NCBI RefSeq assembly: GCF_022213955.1
Contig: NZ_JAKNTW010000013.1
Span: 248,001 to 312,000 of the forward strand
DNA length: 64,000 nucleotides
Reading direction: 5' to 3'
Origin: Dolomitihabitans soli
GTDB taxonomy: Bacteria > Actinomycetota > Actinomycetes > Streptosporangiales > Streptosporangiaceae
Shown here one piece after another: positions 12,526 to 58,468 of the stretch. The notes beneath the pieces are model-generated. The model was not told the DNA's origin and did not search any database. It saw only the letters and a list, made by a program, of their open reading frames with translations. A program made the translations under genes and the position numbers. Within the stretch, counting starts at the first letter, position 1; each line of letters opens with the position of its first letter.

Positions 12526-13101
12526 TCACCGCCTTCTGGAGGTGCCTGCCCCCTCTACGGGGTTCCTGCCGCGTTCCCGCACAGGTTCTCCACATCCTTC
12601 GCCCAGGCAGCGCTCGACCTCCGTGACGAGTTCGCCGAGAAACTCACCCAGTTGCGCCGAGGTGAGTACGGCACGCAGCCCGAGCCCGCCCGCACCCCAC
12701 GCCTCGACGATCGCCCGCCTGGTGAGCCGCCATTCCCCCGGCGCCGGACGGTCCCGCGCCTGGATCCAGATCGGCCGGGTCCGCAGCAGGCAGCGCAGCT
12801 CGCCGCCACCCGCCACATCGGCCCGCTCACGGCACCTGAACGCGAACAACTCCGTCTCCGGCCCCTCCCCGGGAAAACGGTCGTCCGGATCGACCCAGCA
12901 CCCGCCCTGCTCGGCCCGCGCCGCCGCCACCCCCAGCGCCAGCCGCGCCAGAACCCACCCGCACCGCTCCCCCACCATCCCGTACGGCGTGCCGTCCCGG
13001 CGAAGCTCAAGAACGACCTCGTACGGCACGCCGACGCTGTCCGTACAGGTCAGCGGAGTAACGGTCAGATATGACCCGTCCACGCAGCGAAGTCCCCCCA
13101 T
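12526..13101 (-). CDS. Hypothetical protein downstream of the MNIO locus
   Basis: About 191 residues, no family recognised. Starts at ATG 13101 (MGGLRCVDGSYLTVTP); the open frame continues upstream through a 7-bp tandem repeat, which I do not believe is coding. It contains seven cysteines spread along the chain, no signal peptide and no membrane helix. The first half looks alpha/beta (YEVVLELRRDGTPYGMVGE); the C-terminal part looks helical (QLGEFLGELVTEVERCLGE). Same strand as the MNIO operon but separated from it by a 236-base gap, so co-transcription is uncertain. Codon use fits its neighbours. Confidence 0.6.
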   Translation of the reverse strand: MGGLRCVDGSYLTVTPLTCTDSVGVPYEVVLELRRDGTPYGMVGERCGWVLARLALGVAAARAEQGGCWVDPDDRFPGEGPETELFAFRCRERADVAGGGELRCLLRTRPIWIQARDRPAPGEWRLTRRAIVEAWGAGGLGLRAVLTSAQLGEFLGELVTEVERCLGEGCGEPVRERGRNPVEGAGTSRRR

Positions 13102-13200
13102 GCCTGTGAGGTATCCCCGGCGGACCCACTCAAACTCCGGCCGGCGATGACGCCGCAGACGGAGGGCCGGAGTCGTTCCGTCCAGCCGATTCCGATCCGC

Positions 13201-13268
13201 CCGCCGCCCGCCGCCCGCCGCCCGCCGCCCGCCGCCCGCCGCCCGCCGCCCGCCGCCCGCCGCCCGCG
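13201..13268. repeat. 7-bp tandem repeat (CCGCCGC, nine copies plus partial)
   Basis: Nine exact copies of CCGCCGC followed by a partial copy, all G or C, in the gap between the downstream Gly/Cys-tail protein and the hypothetical gene. Because 7 is not a multiple of 3, copy-number changes shift frame; the open frame running through it repeats R-R-A-A-G-G-G every 21 bases. It may be a slippage hotspot. The rest of this 236-base gap shows no other feature. Confidence 0.9.
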
Positions 13269-13337
13269 ACGAGTTTGCCCGTATGGAGACGCTCGGGGAG
13301 CCGGCCGAAGAACCGGCGCGGTCATCGTCGCGGAAAC

Positions 13338-14333
13338 CTAGCTGCCGCCACACCCTCCGCCGCAACCCCCGCCACAGCCACCACCACCGCCGCCCCCGCC
13401 ACCGGACCCTCCGTCGGAGCCCCCGCCGCCGTAGTCGCCCCCGCCGTAGCCACCCCCGCCGTAGGAGTCGCCTCCCACCGAACCACCGCCGCAGGCACCC
13501 GTCGCGCAGCCCGAACCGCCCGCCACGGCGTTCTTCTTCTCTTCTGCGTCGAGTTGGTCGGCCAATTCGTTGTCACCGGCCTCGCTCAGGCCGTACAGCG
13601 CGACGGGAAAGCCCACGGCGGCCGAGAGACCCGCGCCGGCGGGCACCGGGCCGCCCCTGAGGTGGACGCGCTGGGCCACCGCCAGCTCCTCGCGGCCGGC
13701 GAGGGTGACGACGTTGCGCAGGCCGCGGCGGAGGCGGCGGCCGGCGATCAGGCCGACGACGCCCATGCCGCCCGCGACCGCCACCGCGGCGAAGGAGAGG
13801 ACGTTGACGACCGCGGGCCCCACGGCGACCAGCGCCACCATGCCCGCGGCGAGCACGACGGCCCCGGCCGAGACGATCCTGAGCCTGGCCACCAGGCGGG
13901 ACGTCGGCACGAAGCTGCCGTCGGGAACGAGCAGCCCTCTGCCCGTGAGGTGATAGCGCAGCCCGTGGATCGCGGGGCTGTCGGCCAGCTCGCGGCGGAG
14001 GTCGCCGGCGGAGCAACCGCCCGGACGGGCGGCGACGGCGTCGAGCACCGCCTGCTCCACCGCCTCCGCCGAGGAAGGCGCCCCGTGCACCGGGTTGATC
14101 GCGCCGCCGCGGGAGACCCGGATCGCACCCGATCTGGCGAGCACCGCGAGCGCGGTGTTGATCGCCCGCCGCGGACCGCCCGCGAGGTAGGCGAGCGGGT
14201 AGGGGCCGAGTTGGCCGGCACGTCCGATGGCACTGAGCGAACGCACCCTGCGGTACTCCCGCCGTGCCTCGGCTCTCGTCGATCCGACCAGAGCCGCGGC
14301 CAGCGCACCAAGGATGAGAAAGACGAACTCCAC
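13338..14333 (-). CDS. TIGR04222-type membrane protein with Gly/Cys-rich C-terminal tail (paralog B)
   Basis: A 331-residue protein of the TIGR04222 type. It has an N-terminal membrane helix (~2-17), a cytoplasmic region with [14 protein letters not shown] then RVSRGGAINPVHG, two central helices (~147-195), and a long tail from ~270. The tail holds C-A-T-G-A-C (Cys ~276 and 281), Gly/Ser/Tyr repeats, and a terminus with three evenly spaced Cys (CGGGCGGGCGGS, ~320, 324, 328). It starts at GTG 14333 with GGGAGG four bases upstream and follows the MNIO partner gene by 45 bases. I infer it is a substrate of the MNIO oxidase; its function is unknown. Confidence 0.85.
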   Translation of the reverse strand: MEFVFLILGALAAALVGSTRAEARREYRRVRSLSAIGRAGQLGPYPLAYLAGGPRRAINTALAVLARSGAIRVSRGGAINPVHGAPSSAEAVEQAVLDAVAARPGGCSAGDLRRELADSPAIHGLRYHLTGRGLLVPDGSFVPTSRLVARLRIVSAGAVVLAAGMVALVAVGPAVVNVLSFAAVAVAGGMGVVGLIAGRRLRRGLRNVVTLAGREELAVAQRVHLRGGPVPAGAGLSAAVGFPVALYGLSEAGDNELADQLDAEEKKNAVAGGSGCATGACGGGSVGGDSYGGGGYGGGDYGGGGSDGGSGGGGGGGGGCGGGCGGGCGGS

Positions 14334-14378: not shown

Positions 14379-14987
14379 CTATGTAGACGCGCGCCGGGCC
14401 CGCCGAGTTTCCCGCACGCGCGACCAGAATCCGCGACGGCGGGGAGCGGGCGGTTCGGCGGGCCCGGGAGCGAGCCAGTCGGCGAAGGCACGGGCGTCGG
14501 CACGGGAGCCGCCCGGCGGTTTGGGCCGGCCCTCGGCGTACGACGCGAAGAGTGCGGGGAACTCGCCGCCGAGGGAGCCGACCAGGTCCGGCGCGCTCAG
14601 CGCCACCAGCCCGCGCCGCTTCGCGATCAGGGAGGCCGCCTGGATCGCGAGCCGCCGCTCGTCGAAGCCGACCGGCCCGGGACCACCGGCCACCAGCGCC
14701 GCCAGCAACTCCCGCTGCGCCGCGGCCAGCCTCGCCCGCGCGTCCGGCGGGCCGCCCTCACCGACGTCGGGCACGAGACCTCGCGTCTCTGAGGCCGGCG
14801 AACCGCCCCCGCCAGGTCCAGCCACCGGACCTCGCCTCCCTGCCTCGGTCGAACTCGACGAACCGCTCCCCCCAGGCCCAGCCACCGGACCTCGCCCGCC
14901 CGACGCGGTCGAACCCAGCGAGCCGGCCTCAGCCACCGGACCTCGCCCATCTGACGCGGTCGAACTCAGTGAGCCGGCCTCAGTCAT
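14379..14987 (-). CDS. Probable MNIO partner protein (SCO6045-like C-terminal domain) with repetitive N terminus
   Basis: A 202-residue protein. Residues ~1-80 are low-complexity Gly/Ser/Pro repeats built on E-A-G-S-L-x-S-T-A-S-x-G-R-G-P-V-A (17 residues), encoded by the 51/60-bp repeats described separately. Residues ~82-180 form a compact helical domain (ARLAAAQRELLAALVAGG, AIQAASLIAKRRGLVALS, PDLVGSLGGEFPALFASYA), like the small proteins encoded beside DUF692 in Streptomyces (recalled as SCO6045-like). MNIO partners usually bind the precursor and present it to the oxidase. The start could lie further in, for example a GTG in RGLVPDVGEGG; ATG 14987 is the first in frame. Confidence 0.72.
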   Translation of the reverse strand: MTEAGSLSSTASDGRGPVAEAGSLGSTASGGRGPVAGPGGSGSSSSTEAGRRGPVAGPGGGGSPASETRGLVPDVGEGGPPDARARLAAAQRELLAALVAGGPGPVGFDERRLAIQAASLIAKRRGLVALSAPDLVGSLGGEFPALFASYAEGRPKPPGGSRADARAFADWLAPGPAEPPAPRRRGFWSRVRETRRARRAST

Positions 14988-15063
14988 CGGGCATCACCCG
15001 TCTGACGCGGTCGGACTCGGCAAGCCGGCTTCAGCCACCGGACACCACCCGCCTCACGCGGTC
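14780..15063. repeat. Tandem repeat array seeded by the 3' end of the MNIO gene (51- and 60-bp periods)
   Basis: On the minus strand, units begin with GACCGCGTC followed by a version of GGTCCGGTGGCTGA. The element complementary to GACCGCGT lies at 15055-15063 (inside the MNIO gene), 15004-15012, 14953-14961, 14902-14910 and 14842-14850, with one more degraded copy towards 14780. Spacing is therefore 51, 51, 51, 60 and about 60 bases. The first unit encodes the MNIO C terminus [10 protein letters not shown] and stop; the others are read in another frame as the N terminus of the next protein. Periods are multiples of 3, so copy changes keep that frame. Confidence 0.85.
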
Positions 15064-15840
15064 CAGCTCGGCGGCCAGGGCGGCGTCGCTCGGGTAGGCG
15101 TCGTCCCACTCCAGCAGCACGCCCGGCGGGCGGGTGCGGGCGCACAACTCGGCGAGCAGGTCGAGCACGTCCGGCGGCACCGACGCCGTGTGGGTGTCGT
15201 GCCAGACGCCCTCGTGCAGGTGCCCGCCGGCCACGTGCACGTAGGCGAGCGCGTCGAGCGGCAGACCGTCGAGCGCCTCGCGGGCGTCCAGCCCCAGGTT
15301 GACCTGGTTGGTATAGAGGTTGGCCACGTCGATCAGCAGCCCGACCCCGGTTCGTTCGACCAGTTCGCCCAGGAACTGCGCCTCGGTCAGCTCGTCGCCG
15401 GGCCAGCCGAACAGCGCGGCCACGTTCTCCAGCGCCAGGGGCACCGGCAGGGCCGCCTGCGCCTGCCGTACGTTCTGCACGATGACCGACAGCGCGTCGC
15501 GGGTGCGCGGGACGGGCAGCAGGTGCCCGGCCTCCATGCCGCCCGCGCGTACGAACGCGAGGTGCTCGCTGACCAGTGGCGCGTCCAGCGCCCGCGCGCA
15601 CGCCGCCAGGTGCGCGAGGCCCTCGGGCGCGGGCGGTTCGGCGCCGCCGAGGCCGAGCCCCACTCCGTGCGGGATGACGGGGATCCCCTTCGAGCGCAGC
15701 ACACGCAGGGATTCGGGCAGGCGGGCAGGGCGGAGACTCTCGGCGATGACCTCCACGAACTCCACACCCGGCAGCCGCTCCACGGTCAGGTCGATCTCGG
15801 CGCGCCAGCCGATGCCGATCCCGAGCTCCTCGGCCGTCAC
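15031..15840 (-). CDS. DUF692 multinuclear non-heme iron oxidase (MNIO)
   Basis: A 269-residue TIM-barrel enzyme of the DUF692/MbnB/TglH family, which uses an iron cluster and O2 to modify Cys (or other) residues of ribosomal peptides. It opens [12 protein letters not shown]. Expected metal-ligand positions are all present: H58 in IPHGVGLG, E92-H93 in VSEHLAF, E138 in [10 protein letters not shown]171 and N174 in [13 protein letters not shown]202 and H207 in [13 protein letters not shown]215 and H217 in WHDTHTA, E244 in LLEWDD. The GTG start overlaps the stop of the upstream TIGR04222 gene (GTGA); a longer frame upstream only reads its Gly tail out of frame. Confidence 0.93.
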
Positions 15841-16880
15841 CCCCCACCACCGCCTCCGCCGCCGCACCCGCCGCCGCCACCCCCGCCGCATCCCCCTATA
15901 CCGCCGCCCCTGGACCAATTGCCGGAGCCTCCGGAACCTCCCGAGCCGCCGCGAAACCAACCGCGAAACCAACCGCCTGAGCCGGTTCCTGCCGCGTCTC
16001 GGGCCGGGTAGTCCTCGCCCGAGGAGCCCAGCCAGGCGCCGTCCGCGTACGCGCCGTCGTACGAGCCCGTGTAGGAGCCGCAGTGACCGGGAGCGCAGGA
16101 ACTCGCGCGGTCATGGCTGTGCGCGGGAGTACGGGCGTCCGTGCGCAGCGCGTCGGCGAGGTCGCGGTCGGGCAGCCTGGTCAGCCCGCGCAGCGCCACG
16201 GGGACGAGATCGGTCGTGCTCCGCGCCGCGCCGTCGGCCGTCAGGGTGCCCGCGCCCGCCCGCGCGAGCAGCGCGCGGCCCGCCGCCGACACCGGGGTGG
16301 CCAGCCGCCCACGCAGCCAGTACGCGCACGCCAGGGCCGTCGCCAGGGCCGCCACCGCGATGACCAGTGGCACCACGTACACGCCGCCGGTCATGCTGAG
16401 GACGGCGACCATCGCCGCCGGCACGGCGAGGCCCTTGAGCACCCCGATCGTGCGGCGGACGCGGTGCGTCTCCGCGGGCGACAGCAGGAGCCGTTCACCG
16501 GCCAGCCGCTTGGCGATCTGCTGGATCGGGATCTGCGCGCCGGCCCGGCGCCGGATCCGCGCGGCCGGCTGACCGCGCCTCCTCATCCGCACGACTTGGT
16601 ACACCGCGTGCTCCACGGGCAGCCCGCGGTCGGGCGTGAACCCTTGGACCGGCCGTACCGTGCCGTCACGGGCGACCCGGACGGCGTCCTGCCCGATCAG
16701 GGACACCATCGCCGTGTTGACCGTCCGCCGTGGGCCGCCCGCGAGGTAGGCCGCCTCGTAGAGGTCGAGGGACCGGTCCGCCCGGGGTCTGGCCCAGATC
16801 AGCGAGACGCCGAACCACGCTGCGATGAGCGCCACCGGGAGCAGCAGCGTCAGGGAGACCGAGTAGAGCACCACATCCAA
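15837..16880 (-). CDS. TIGR04222-type membrane protein with Gly/Cys-rich C-terminal tail (paralog A)
   Basis: A 347-residue paralog of the protein at 13338-14333. It has an N-terminal membrane helix (~4-30), [14 protein letters not shown] and [13 protein letters not shown], two central helices (~145-190), then a tail with C-A-P-G-H-C (Cys ~262 and 267), aromatic/Gly spacers ([24 protein letters not shown]) and a terminal poly-Gly run with two Cys (~331 and 339). The TTG start is chosen because AGGAGG lies six bases upstream. It is the first gene of the operon and is coupled to the MNIO gene by a GTGA overlap, which makes it a strong candidate substrate. Confidence 0.85.
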
Positions 16881-35182: not shown

Positions 35183-35380
35183 ACGCCCCCCCGACCGCCC
35201 GACACCGTCAACCCCCGTCAACTGGGCGGACGTTCAGGGTAAACGATCGATAACGATGCTCGGTCCTCACCTGCGATGGTACGTCGAGCACAGCCCCTGT
35301 CGAGGGACATCCGCGACTCAAGGCACTACTCGGCATGGGTGGGGCGTGTCGCGGTCTATCACCTGATCATTCCCAGGTGG

Positions 35381-35440
35381 GCGACCAGTGCGGCGACCAG
35401 TGCGGCGACCAGTGCGGCGACCAGTGCGGCGACTAGTGCG
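35381..35440. repeat. 12-bp tandem repeat at the 3' end of the Lrp gene
   Basis: Four exact copies of GCGACCAGTGCG (35381-35428) and a fifth with one change, GCGACTAGTGCG (35429-35440). On the minus strand that one change turns TGG into TAG and supplies the stop of the Lrp-family gene. Without it the frame would run on as P-H-W-S repeats for about 16 residues. The rest of the PBP-Lrp gap shows nothing else. Confidence 0.9.
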
Positions 35441-35912
35441 GCGGCTGGCGGGGAACCTCCGCGACCAGCGGGAGGACGCGGTAGGGGACGGGCGTGTCGA
35501 GGGCGATCACCGAGGAGGTCCTGACGACGCCCCGGACGTCGACGATCTGGTCGATGACCCGTTGCAGGTCGGCGTTGCTCCTGGCGACCACGCGGGCCAG
35601 CATGTCGCCGCTCCCGGTGATGGTGTGGACCTCCAGGACCTCGGGGATGGCGGCGAGCTGGTCGGCCACCGGCTCGTGCCCGCTGACCTGGCGGATCTCC
35701 AGGGTGACGAACGCGGTCACGTCGTAGCCGAGCGCGCCGGGGTCGACCTCGGGGCCGAACCCGGTGATCACCCCGCGCGCGACCATCCGGTCGAGCCGCG
35801 CCTGCACGGTGCCCCGCGCCACGTTGAGCCTGCGCGAGCACTCCAGGACGCCGAGCCGCGGCTCCCCGGCGAGCAGCTCGACCAGCCGTGCGTCCAGCGG
35901 ATCAATCGTCAT
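35433..35912 (-). CDS. Lrp/AsnC-family transcriptional regulator
   Basis: A 159-residue regulator with an N-terminal helix-turn-helix (DARLVELLAGEPRLGVLECSRRLNVARGTVQARLDRM, beginning at residue 6) and a C-terminal RAM/ligand domain (VTAFVTLEI, VHTITGSGDMLARVV). Divergent from hppD across 102 bases, so it probably controls that gene in response to an amino acid such as tyrosine or a derivative. ATG 35912 is preferred to a start at 35963. Its stop lies inside a 12-bp tandem repeat. Confidence 0.9.
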   Translation of the reverse strand: MTIDPLDARLVELLAGEPRLGVLECSRRLNVARGTVQARLDRMVARGVITGFGPEVDPGALGYDVTAFVTLEIRQVSGHEPVADQLAAIPEVLEVHTITGSGDMLARVVARSNADLQRVIDQIVDVRGVVRTSSVIALDTPVPYRVLPLVAEVPRQPPH

Positions 35913-49523: not shown

Positions 49524-49746
49524 TGCGACGCTGCGCGTCGCGGTTCGGGCGCTCACACCCGGCGGCTTCCCTCGTCGCTCATCCGCTCCTACGTCGCTCC
49601 TTCACTCCTCAGTCCAGCCACCGGCGCGCCCTGTTTGATGCGACGCTGCGCGTCGCGGTTCGGGCGCTCACACCCGGCGGCTTCCCTCGTCGCTCATCCG
49701 CTCCTACGTCGCTCCTTCACTCCTCAGTCCAGCCACCGGCGCGCCC
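49524..49746. repeat. Two perfect 108-bp direct repeats separated by 7 bp
   Basis: Copies at 49524-49631 and 49639-49746 are identical by eye; the 7-base spacer is TGTTTGA. Each copy contains a short hairpin, GCGACGC-TGC-GCGTCGC. The open frames reading through them have no independent coding support. The sequence looks like a dispersed intergenic repeat family rather than a gene. Confidence 0.92.
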
Positions 49747-57724: not shown

Positions 57725-58468
57725 GTGAATCTGACAGCCAGGATGGCGGGCGGCCTCGTGATCAGTTGCCAGGCCCCCGACGGGCATCCGCTGCGCCGTA
57801 CCCCGGTCATCGCCCTGCTCGCCCGGTGCGCCGAGGAGGGCGGGGCCGCGGGTGTGCGGGTCAACGGCCCCGAGGACGTCCGCGCGGTCAGGGCGGCGGT
57901 GGGGCTGCCGATCATCGGCCTGGCCAAGGTCCCGCGGGAGAGCGCCCGGCCGCTCATCACACCGGGGTACGAGCTTGCCGCCCGGCTGGTCGAGGCCGGG
58001 GCCGACATGGTGGCCCTGGAGGCGACCGCGGAGGTGACCGGCGACCCGCGGGAGACGATCGAACGGGTCAGGACCCGTCTCGGCGTGCCGGTCATGGCCG
58101 ACGTCTCCACCCTCGGCGAAGGGCTCGCGGCCTGGGAGTGGGGCGCGGAACTGGTGTCCACGACCCTGTCCGGCTACACCCCCTACACCGCCACCCCCGC
58201 CACCCCCGCCACCCCCGGCACCCCCGGCACCCCCGGCACCCCCGGCACCCCCGGCGATGAGCCTGACCTCGATCTGGTCGCCCGGCTCGCCGCCCACGAC
58301 GTCCGCACCGTGGCCGAGGGCCGCCTGCGTACCGCCGAACACCTGGCCGCCGCCTTCGAACGCGGCGCCTGGGCCGTGGTCGTGGGCGGCGCGGCGACCG
58401 ACCCGCTCGCGATCACCCGCCGGCTCGTCCGCAGCACACCCGCCGCACAACGGGTCCAGGCGACGTGA
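57725..58468 (+). CDS. nanE: Putative N-acylglucosamine-6-phosphate 2-epimerase
   Basis: A 247-residue TIM-barrel of the NanE family, interconverting ManNAc-6-P and GlcNAc-6-P. Conserved pieces are GGLVISCQAP, GVRVNGPEDVRAVRAAV, PIIGLAKVPRE, MVALEATAE, VMADVSTLGEGL, TTLSGYTPY and AEGRLRTAEH. A loop after TTLSGYTPY is expanded by Thr-Pro-Ala/Gly triplets from a 9-bp tandem repeat, not present in typical members. The gene begins with a leaderless GTG and is followed by a ROK gene; both suit amino-sugar catabolism under the GntR regulator. Confidence 0.86.
   Translation: MNLTARMAGGLVISCQAPDGHPLRRTPVIALLARCAEEGGAAGVRVNGPEDVRAVRAAVGLPIIGLAKVPRESARPLITPGYELAARLVEAGADMVALEATAEVTGDPRETIERVRTRLGVPVMADVSTLGEGLAAWEWGAELVSTTLSGYTPYTATPATPATPGTPGTPGTPGTPGDEPDLDLVARLAAHDVRTVAEGRLRTAEHLAAAFERGAWAVVVGGAATDPLAITRRLVRSTPAAQRVQAT
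58190..58255. repeat. 9-bp tandem repeat within nanE
   Basis: Repeats of ACCCCCGCC and ACCCCCGGC encode Thr-Pro-Ala and Thr-Pro-Gly. About seven units are seen. Period is a multiple of 3, so copy changes alter loop length without frameshift. Confidence 0.9.

Follow-up and report, generated by a model that had tools for sequence, protein, structure and literature searches.

Can the end of one gene, copied in tandem, become the beginning of the next, and what would then happen to the link between the two? The question is raised by a minus-strand row of four genes in the 64,000-nt stretch of DNA analysed here (the window), which belongs to a 10.8-Mb genome with family relatives in Streptosporangium, Nonomuraea, Herbidospora and similar genera. 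The row runs from a TIGR04222 membrane protein with a Gly/Cys-rich C-terminal tail (protein A, 15837..16880, −; NCBIfam TIGR04222, E 1.5e-27), which is a candidate MNIO substrate, through an MNIO (MbnB_TglH_ChrH) gene (15031..15840, −; its stop is the TGA at 15033-15031, and GTG 15840 is its assumed start) and a short partner ORF (14379..14987, −; 202 aa from ATG 14987) to a second TIGR04222 membrane protein with a Cys/Gly-rich tail (protein B, 13338..14333, −; NCBIfam TIGR04222, E 7.1e-30). The MNIO belongs to the DUF692 family, its match covering positions 1-262 of the 263 in the Pfam PF05114 profile (E 3.5e-79), and is predicted to carry out an iron-dependent modification of a precursor. 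An MNIO match is present in 134 of the 297 genomes of the bacterial family. By published context, the two TIGR04222 proteins that flank the MNIO-partner pair are likely MNIO substrates.

The partner opens with repeats, which are followed by a conserved domain from about 14744, placed with an HMM built from relatives. It lies directly after the MNIO gene in a TIGR04222 context and has no DUF2063 hit of its own, and thereby fits the PME-type 2 partners. In keeping with this, PF09836 (DUF2063) is matched by four of the 62 aligned partner relatives (best E 9.2e-5), but an hhalign comparison of the partner profile with two DUF2063 proteins was weak, with a probability of 6.8%, and searches with the partner returned no match among PDB sequences or plasmid records.

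The repeat array behind the MNIO gene

Two arrays were identified with Tandem Repeats Finder, one with a 51-nt period (14875-15063, 3.7 copies) and one with a 60-nt period (14799-14914, 1.9 copies), and a second repeat search recovered this set of copies. The junction has a self-match score of 80.5, whereas none of 100 dinucleotide shuffles scored above 12.5, so the array is not due to chance, and the copies are 57-84% identical in pairwise comparisons, which shows that they have diverged and are not an assembly duplicate. The repeated unit comprises ~39 nt from the very end of the MNIO gene, followed by its TGA and a further ~9 bases. It recurs downstream of the MNIO end at +51, +102 and +153 and then after a 60-nt unit. 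The donor unit (copy 0, 15022..15072, −), which consists of the MNIO 3′ end plus 9 nt, is followed on the same strand by copies 1 (14971..15021), 2 (14920..14970) and 3 (14869..14919) of 51 nt each, by a 60-nt copy 4 with a 9-nt insertion (14809..14868), and by a decayed copy 5 that contains SETRGLVPDVGE (14758..14808).

When the array is set out in rows of 51 nt, the MNIO frame displays the MNIO end and then AESDRVRRVMPDD*, TEFDRVRWARSGG* and AGFDRVGRARSGG(W), i.e. the MNIO C terminus can be read in the MNIO frame of every copy and the stop in the first three copies. The partner frame, which is +1 relative to that of MNIO, displays TEAGSLSSTASDGRGPVAEAGSLGSTASGGRGPVAGPGG... in the same rows, a series of Gly/Ser-rich repeats (...EAGSL-STASDGRGPVA...) that contain no Cys. 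The spacings of 51, 51, 51 and 60 nt all keep the reading frame, as in a coding minisatellite. These results bear out an earlier note on this DNA, which had described three spacings of 51 bases followed by one of about 60, both periods being multiples of three, and copies read out of the MNIO frame as Gly/Ser repeats of the next ORF.

The MNIO end (ELDRIRxAM..) is conserved in relatives, most of which have no repeats behind it, and the partner N terminus of the same relatives is hypervariable. The GC content of the repeats by MNIO-frame codon position is 0.67, 0.68 and 0.85, the highest value being that of the third position. In the partner frame, third-position GC is ~0.67 in the repeats as opposed to 0.93 in the partner domain, and the codon bias of the repeats is poor. 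Because its end is conserved in relatives that lack the repeats and because the copies keep the GC pattern of its frame, the MNIO gene is the donor, the direction proposed earlier. Copies 1 and 2 differ at 6, 0 and 3 sites by codon position, other pairs show no clear pattern, and the changes are few; over all linkers, the frames contain 11, 23 and 36 stops and are modestly separated. By sequence, then, the repeats descend from the MNIO 3′ end, whose codons are reused in another frame and form an open N-terminal part of the partner ORF.

The genome contains no further full copy of the array unit, just a 41-nt weak match. A transposon or other mobile repeat was ruled out as the source, since the unit is locus-specific and other lineages copy their own MNIO ends.

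The window contains several other tandem repeats. A perfect 7-nt repeat, CCGCCCG, is present in 10.1 copies at 13197-13267 on the 5′ side of a minus-strand ORF (12526-13365); because its unit length is not divisible by three, the repeat may be hypermutable. A 115-nt tandem duplication at 49524-49746 (1.9 copies, 100% identical) is apparently recent. Near-perfect short arrays at 35380-35443 (12 nt, 5.3 copies) and 58188-58255 (9 nt, 7.6 copies) both have unit lengths that are multiples of three.

Junction duplications in related genomes

Copies of the MNIO end with a score of at least 15 are found in the linkers of 8 of the 73 junctions that have linkers of 20-500 nt. The same score is reached by none of 73 pseudo-junctions inside MNIO, none of 106 TIGR04222>MNIO junctions, and none of 46 other overlapping junctions in the relatives' loci compared here and the window. 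Partner>TIGR04222 junctions reach it in four of 106 cases. Duplications across the partner stop codon are seen in loci L008, L141, L009 and L016, with shifts of 37, 31, 88 and 84 nt; shifts at the partner 3′ end are mostly not multiples of three.

Besides the 51-nt period of the window, the duplicated junctions have a 27-nt period shared by Streptosporangium canum and S. minutum, a 36-nt unit in L091 and its sister species L140 (the copy number differs between the two, and L140 alone is marginal), a 27/54-nt period in L146, a 24-nt period in Acrocarpospora catenulata (L022), a 33/66-nt period in L016, which is marginal with only 6 nt of MNIO included, and a frame-breaking 70-nt period in Herbidospora mongoliensis (L056). 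On the MNIO tree, junction duplication requires seven label changes, and MNIO-end duplications into the linker arose independently about seven times; the array of the window represents one of these recurrent events. The period is a multiple of three in all of these lineages except that of H. mongoliensis, i.e. in six of seven, and the chance of at least six of seven at one third each is ~0.007 (0.018 without L016).

At the position of the repeats, relatives have hypervariable low-complexity linkers of 0-150 residues, which in most of them are open from the overlap start, for up to 150 codons. Internal linker repeats that do not include the MNIO end occur in other species (e.g. L108, L109, L118, L019). 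The earlier suggestion of a flexible linker agrees with such linkers at the same place in relatives, and the repeat-encoded front end of the partner is probably floppy. The suggestion of a substrate mimic found no support, for the Cys-free repeats are unlike the Cys-rich TIGR04222 tails. The proposed duplication of the MNIO end stands, but its unit is better described as the stop/start junction than as the MNIO end alone.

Candidate starts and relay mini-ORFs

Among the relatives, 101 have a usable partner ORF; in 84 of these the predicted partner start is at −1 or −5 from the MNIO TGA, which corresponds to NTGA or NTGNNTGA. The MNIO stop of the window carries GTGGCTGA (15031..15038, −), the putative ancestral stop/start overlap, at a position that is also used in relatives and with a spacing of −8, one of the spacings of coupled pairs (−8, −4 or −1 nt). 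The GTGGCTGA start leads to a 14-codon ORF only, which is closed by a partner-frame TGA in copy 1 that the earlier note had overlooked; later copies have CGA there. Owing to this TGA, the longest possible product starts at ATG 14987, which is +43 nt from the MNIO stop, and not at the ancestral GTG.

Copies 1 to 5 each contribute one in-frame start candidate, namely ATG 14987 and GTG 14936, 14885, 14825 and 14774 (the last being the alternative start given in the earlier note), for which the predicted anti-SD pairing is −5.3, −8.7, −8.4, −12.4 and −9.5 kcal/mol, respectively. A product from ATG 14987 would include MTEAGSLSSTASDGR..., and products of a late start would begin VAGPGGGG or VPDVGEGG. 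As the strongest predicted pairing is that of GTG 14825 in copy 4, part of the repeat may be untranslated. Judged from the reading frames, the predicted partner start must lie in a copy, at ATG 14987 or at one of the later GTGs.

Loci whose partner frame is closed in the vicinity of the overlap frequently have a small ORF that spans the interval from the MNIO stop to the partner start. The window has two candidate relay mini-ORFs of this kind: mini-ORF 1, which is the 14-codon ORF described above (14994..15038, −), and the 5-codon VMPDD* (14980..14997, −), a fossil MNIO C terminus in copy 1 that is flanked by GTGA and ATGACTGA overlaps. The chain from MNIO to the partner would thus lead from GTGGCTGA through mini-ORF 1, GTGA and VMPDD* to ATGACTGA. 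Five Herbidospora species have a relay ORF of 18, 22 or 35 codons that extends from GTGGCTGA to ATGGATGA or ATGCATGA, and that of A. catenulata has 44 codons and extends from GTGA to ATGA. The 70-nt duplication of H. mongoliensis results in two successive ORFs with three −8 overlaps. Longer ORFs are also seen immediately behind the MNIO stop: Nonomuraea soli (L087) has an extra ORF of 173 codons between MNIO and the partner, with its ATG at −8, and the ORF in L141 is hydrophobic and 62 codons long.

Under a strict rule that limits spacings to −11, −8, −4 and −1, 61 of the 62 loci with linkers of at least 40 nt are connected (51 directly and 10 via mini-ORFs, leaving one unconnected) against ~24 expected (shuffles: 15.4, 8.8 and 37.8, respectively). 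Relays join 10 of the 11 loci that are not connected directly, compared to about one in five in shuffles. The −11 class was added post hoc, after inspection of the data; if just −8, −4 and −1 are allowed, L059 and L143 lose their connection, which persists in the window, in A. catenulata, in the five Herbidospora species and in H. mongoliensis. The direct loci are for the most part simply partner genes with an open linker, and so the coupling argument is carried by the relay loci. These are few, and the five Herbidospora species among them do not represent independent cases. A chain test with a loose distance rule was discarded because shuffles connect about equally often, the chains of the relay loci reaching the partner in 48-99% of them.

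Origin of the extension, its alternatives and known systems

We propose the following explanation. As the sequence shows, a unit that contains the MNIO stop together with the partner start overlapping it was duplicated in tandem several times, with the first copy leaving the MNIO gene intact. As the unit is a multiple of three, the extra copies enter the partner frame and form an N-terminal low-complexity extension, which consists of former MNIO codons in another frame and is presumably translated. Such growth would be tolerated at the junction because the partner starts with a hypervariable linker that precedes its DUF2063-like domain, and every copy brings along an additional start codon with its surroundings preserved. 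Comparison with the other copies points to a change of CGA into TGA that closed the original frame, and the start codon of a copy could then take over partner initiation. Mini-ORFs with canonical −8/−4 overlaps would keep the link between MNIO and the partner, so that termination-reinitiation coupling could persist. What we infer from sequence comparison is that the repeats are translated, that they serve as an inert linker and that translational coupling is under selection. We have considerable confidence in the explanation as a whole, i.e. in the combination of junction duplication, frame-keeping N-terminal extension, spare starts and mini-ORF coupling.

The repeats might instead be an untranslated spacer, a neutral minisatellite, with the partner starting at the late GTG 14825 or 14774. 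These GTGs have the better predicted SD pairing, the codon usage of the repeats is unlike that of the partner domain, and ATG 14987 is +43 nt away from the MNIO stop, a distance over which direct coupling should be weak (PMC10666635). However, the spacings of 51, 51 and 60 nt all keep the partner frame, which is open from ATG 14987, linkers of relatives are mostly open from the overlap start, and six of the seven independent duplications are multiples of three; we regard a silent spacer as rather unlikely. A more credible contender, although one we are inclined to doubt, is ordinary minisatellite slippage of the partner linker, in which the MNIO end was included as a neighbour and coupling is unselected. 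Internal linker repeats without the MNIO end speak for slippage, as do the gene-end duplications seen in 4 of 106 junctions at the 3′ end of the partner itself. It is compatible with the origin part of our explanation but not with the coupling part, against which stand the strict overlap chain kept in 61 of 62 loci and the H. mongoliensis duplication, which breaks the frame and yet leaves three successive −8 overlaps.

A sequence-specific role of the repeat, be it substrate mimicry or MNIO binding via a C-terminus-like peptide, would suit two proteins that are encoded together and presumably are partners, as well as repeats that are Gly/Ser-rich like the presumed substrate tails. Yet the out-of-frame copies do not encode the MNIO C-terminal peptide, the linkers of other lineages are unrelated in sequence and length, and the repeats carry no Cys, making such a role highly improbable.

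Read as a junction duplication, the locus is a directional bacterial example in which existing coding DNA, read in another frame, has come to supply an N-terminal protein segment, and related genera have independent replicates of it. It also suggests why the growth is tolerated, as a duplication over the overlap spares the upstream gene and supplies the downstream gene with extra starts. Whether MNIO-partner coupling is selected has natural tests in the relay mini-ORFs of Herbidospora, A. catenulata and the window. As a tentative generalization, duplication of stop/start junctions may be a recurrent route by which in-frame copies lengthen a protein and frame-breaking or mutated copies give rise to chains of relay ORFs, with coupling selected as the spacer grows.

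The window resembles the published MNIO-TIGR04222 clusters with PME-type 2 partners (PMC12452194), which have the same genes, namely an MNIO, a short partner that follows it and has no Pfam hit of its own, and TIGR04222 proteins with C-proximal Cys. The length of PME-type 2 proteins is described there as very heterogeneous, and the sections consulted make no mention of an N-terminal linker, repeats or junction duplication, all of which characterize the window. Termination-reinitiation is known at NTGA, TGATG and NTGNNTGA (PMC6728339; PMC10666635; PMC12548453), and the overlap of MNIO and the ancestral partner is likewise −8/−4 in most relatives. In overlapping stop/start pairs, of which −4, −1 and −8 overlaps are the commonest, coupling depends strongly on distance and is nearly lost by ~20-40 nt (PMC10666635), although other studies report a weaker distance dependence (reviewed in PMC12548453, from which the word 'duplication' is absent). 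Unlike in these known pairs, the overlap itself is here tandemly duplicated, giving rise to N-terminal extensions or mini-ORFs.

In Mycobacterium tuberculosis, the short PPE2 uORF relays translation downstream via an AUGA overlap, mainly by termination-reinitiation (PMC11260477). The PPE2 uORF is tied to a riboswitch, whereas the candidate relays of the window are located between two structural genes and derive from junction copies. Given the published distance dependence and this precedent, the relay reading of the mini-ORFs is plausible. A direct precedent for duplicated stop/start overlaps was not found in the open-access literature. Overprinting creates a new peptide from another frame of existing coding DNA, and coding minisatellites grow by whole repeat units. 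The repeat of the window differs from both in extending over the border between two genes and in containing stop as well as start signals.
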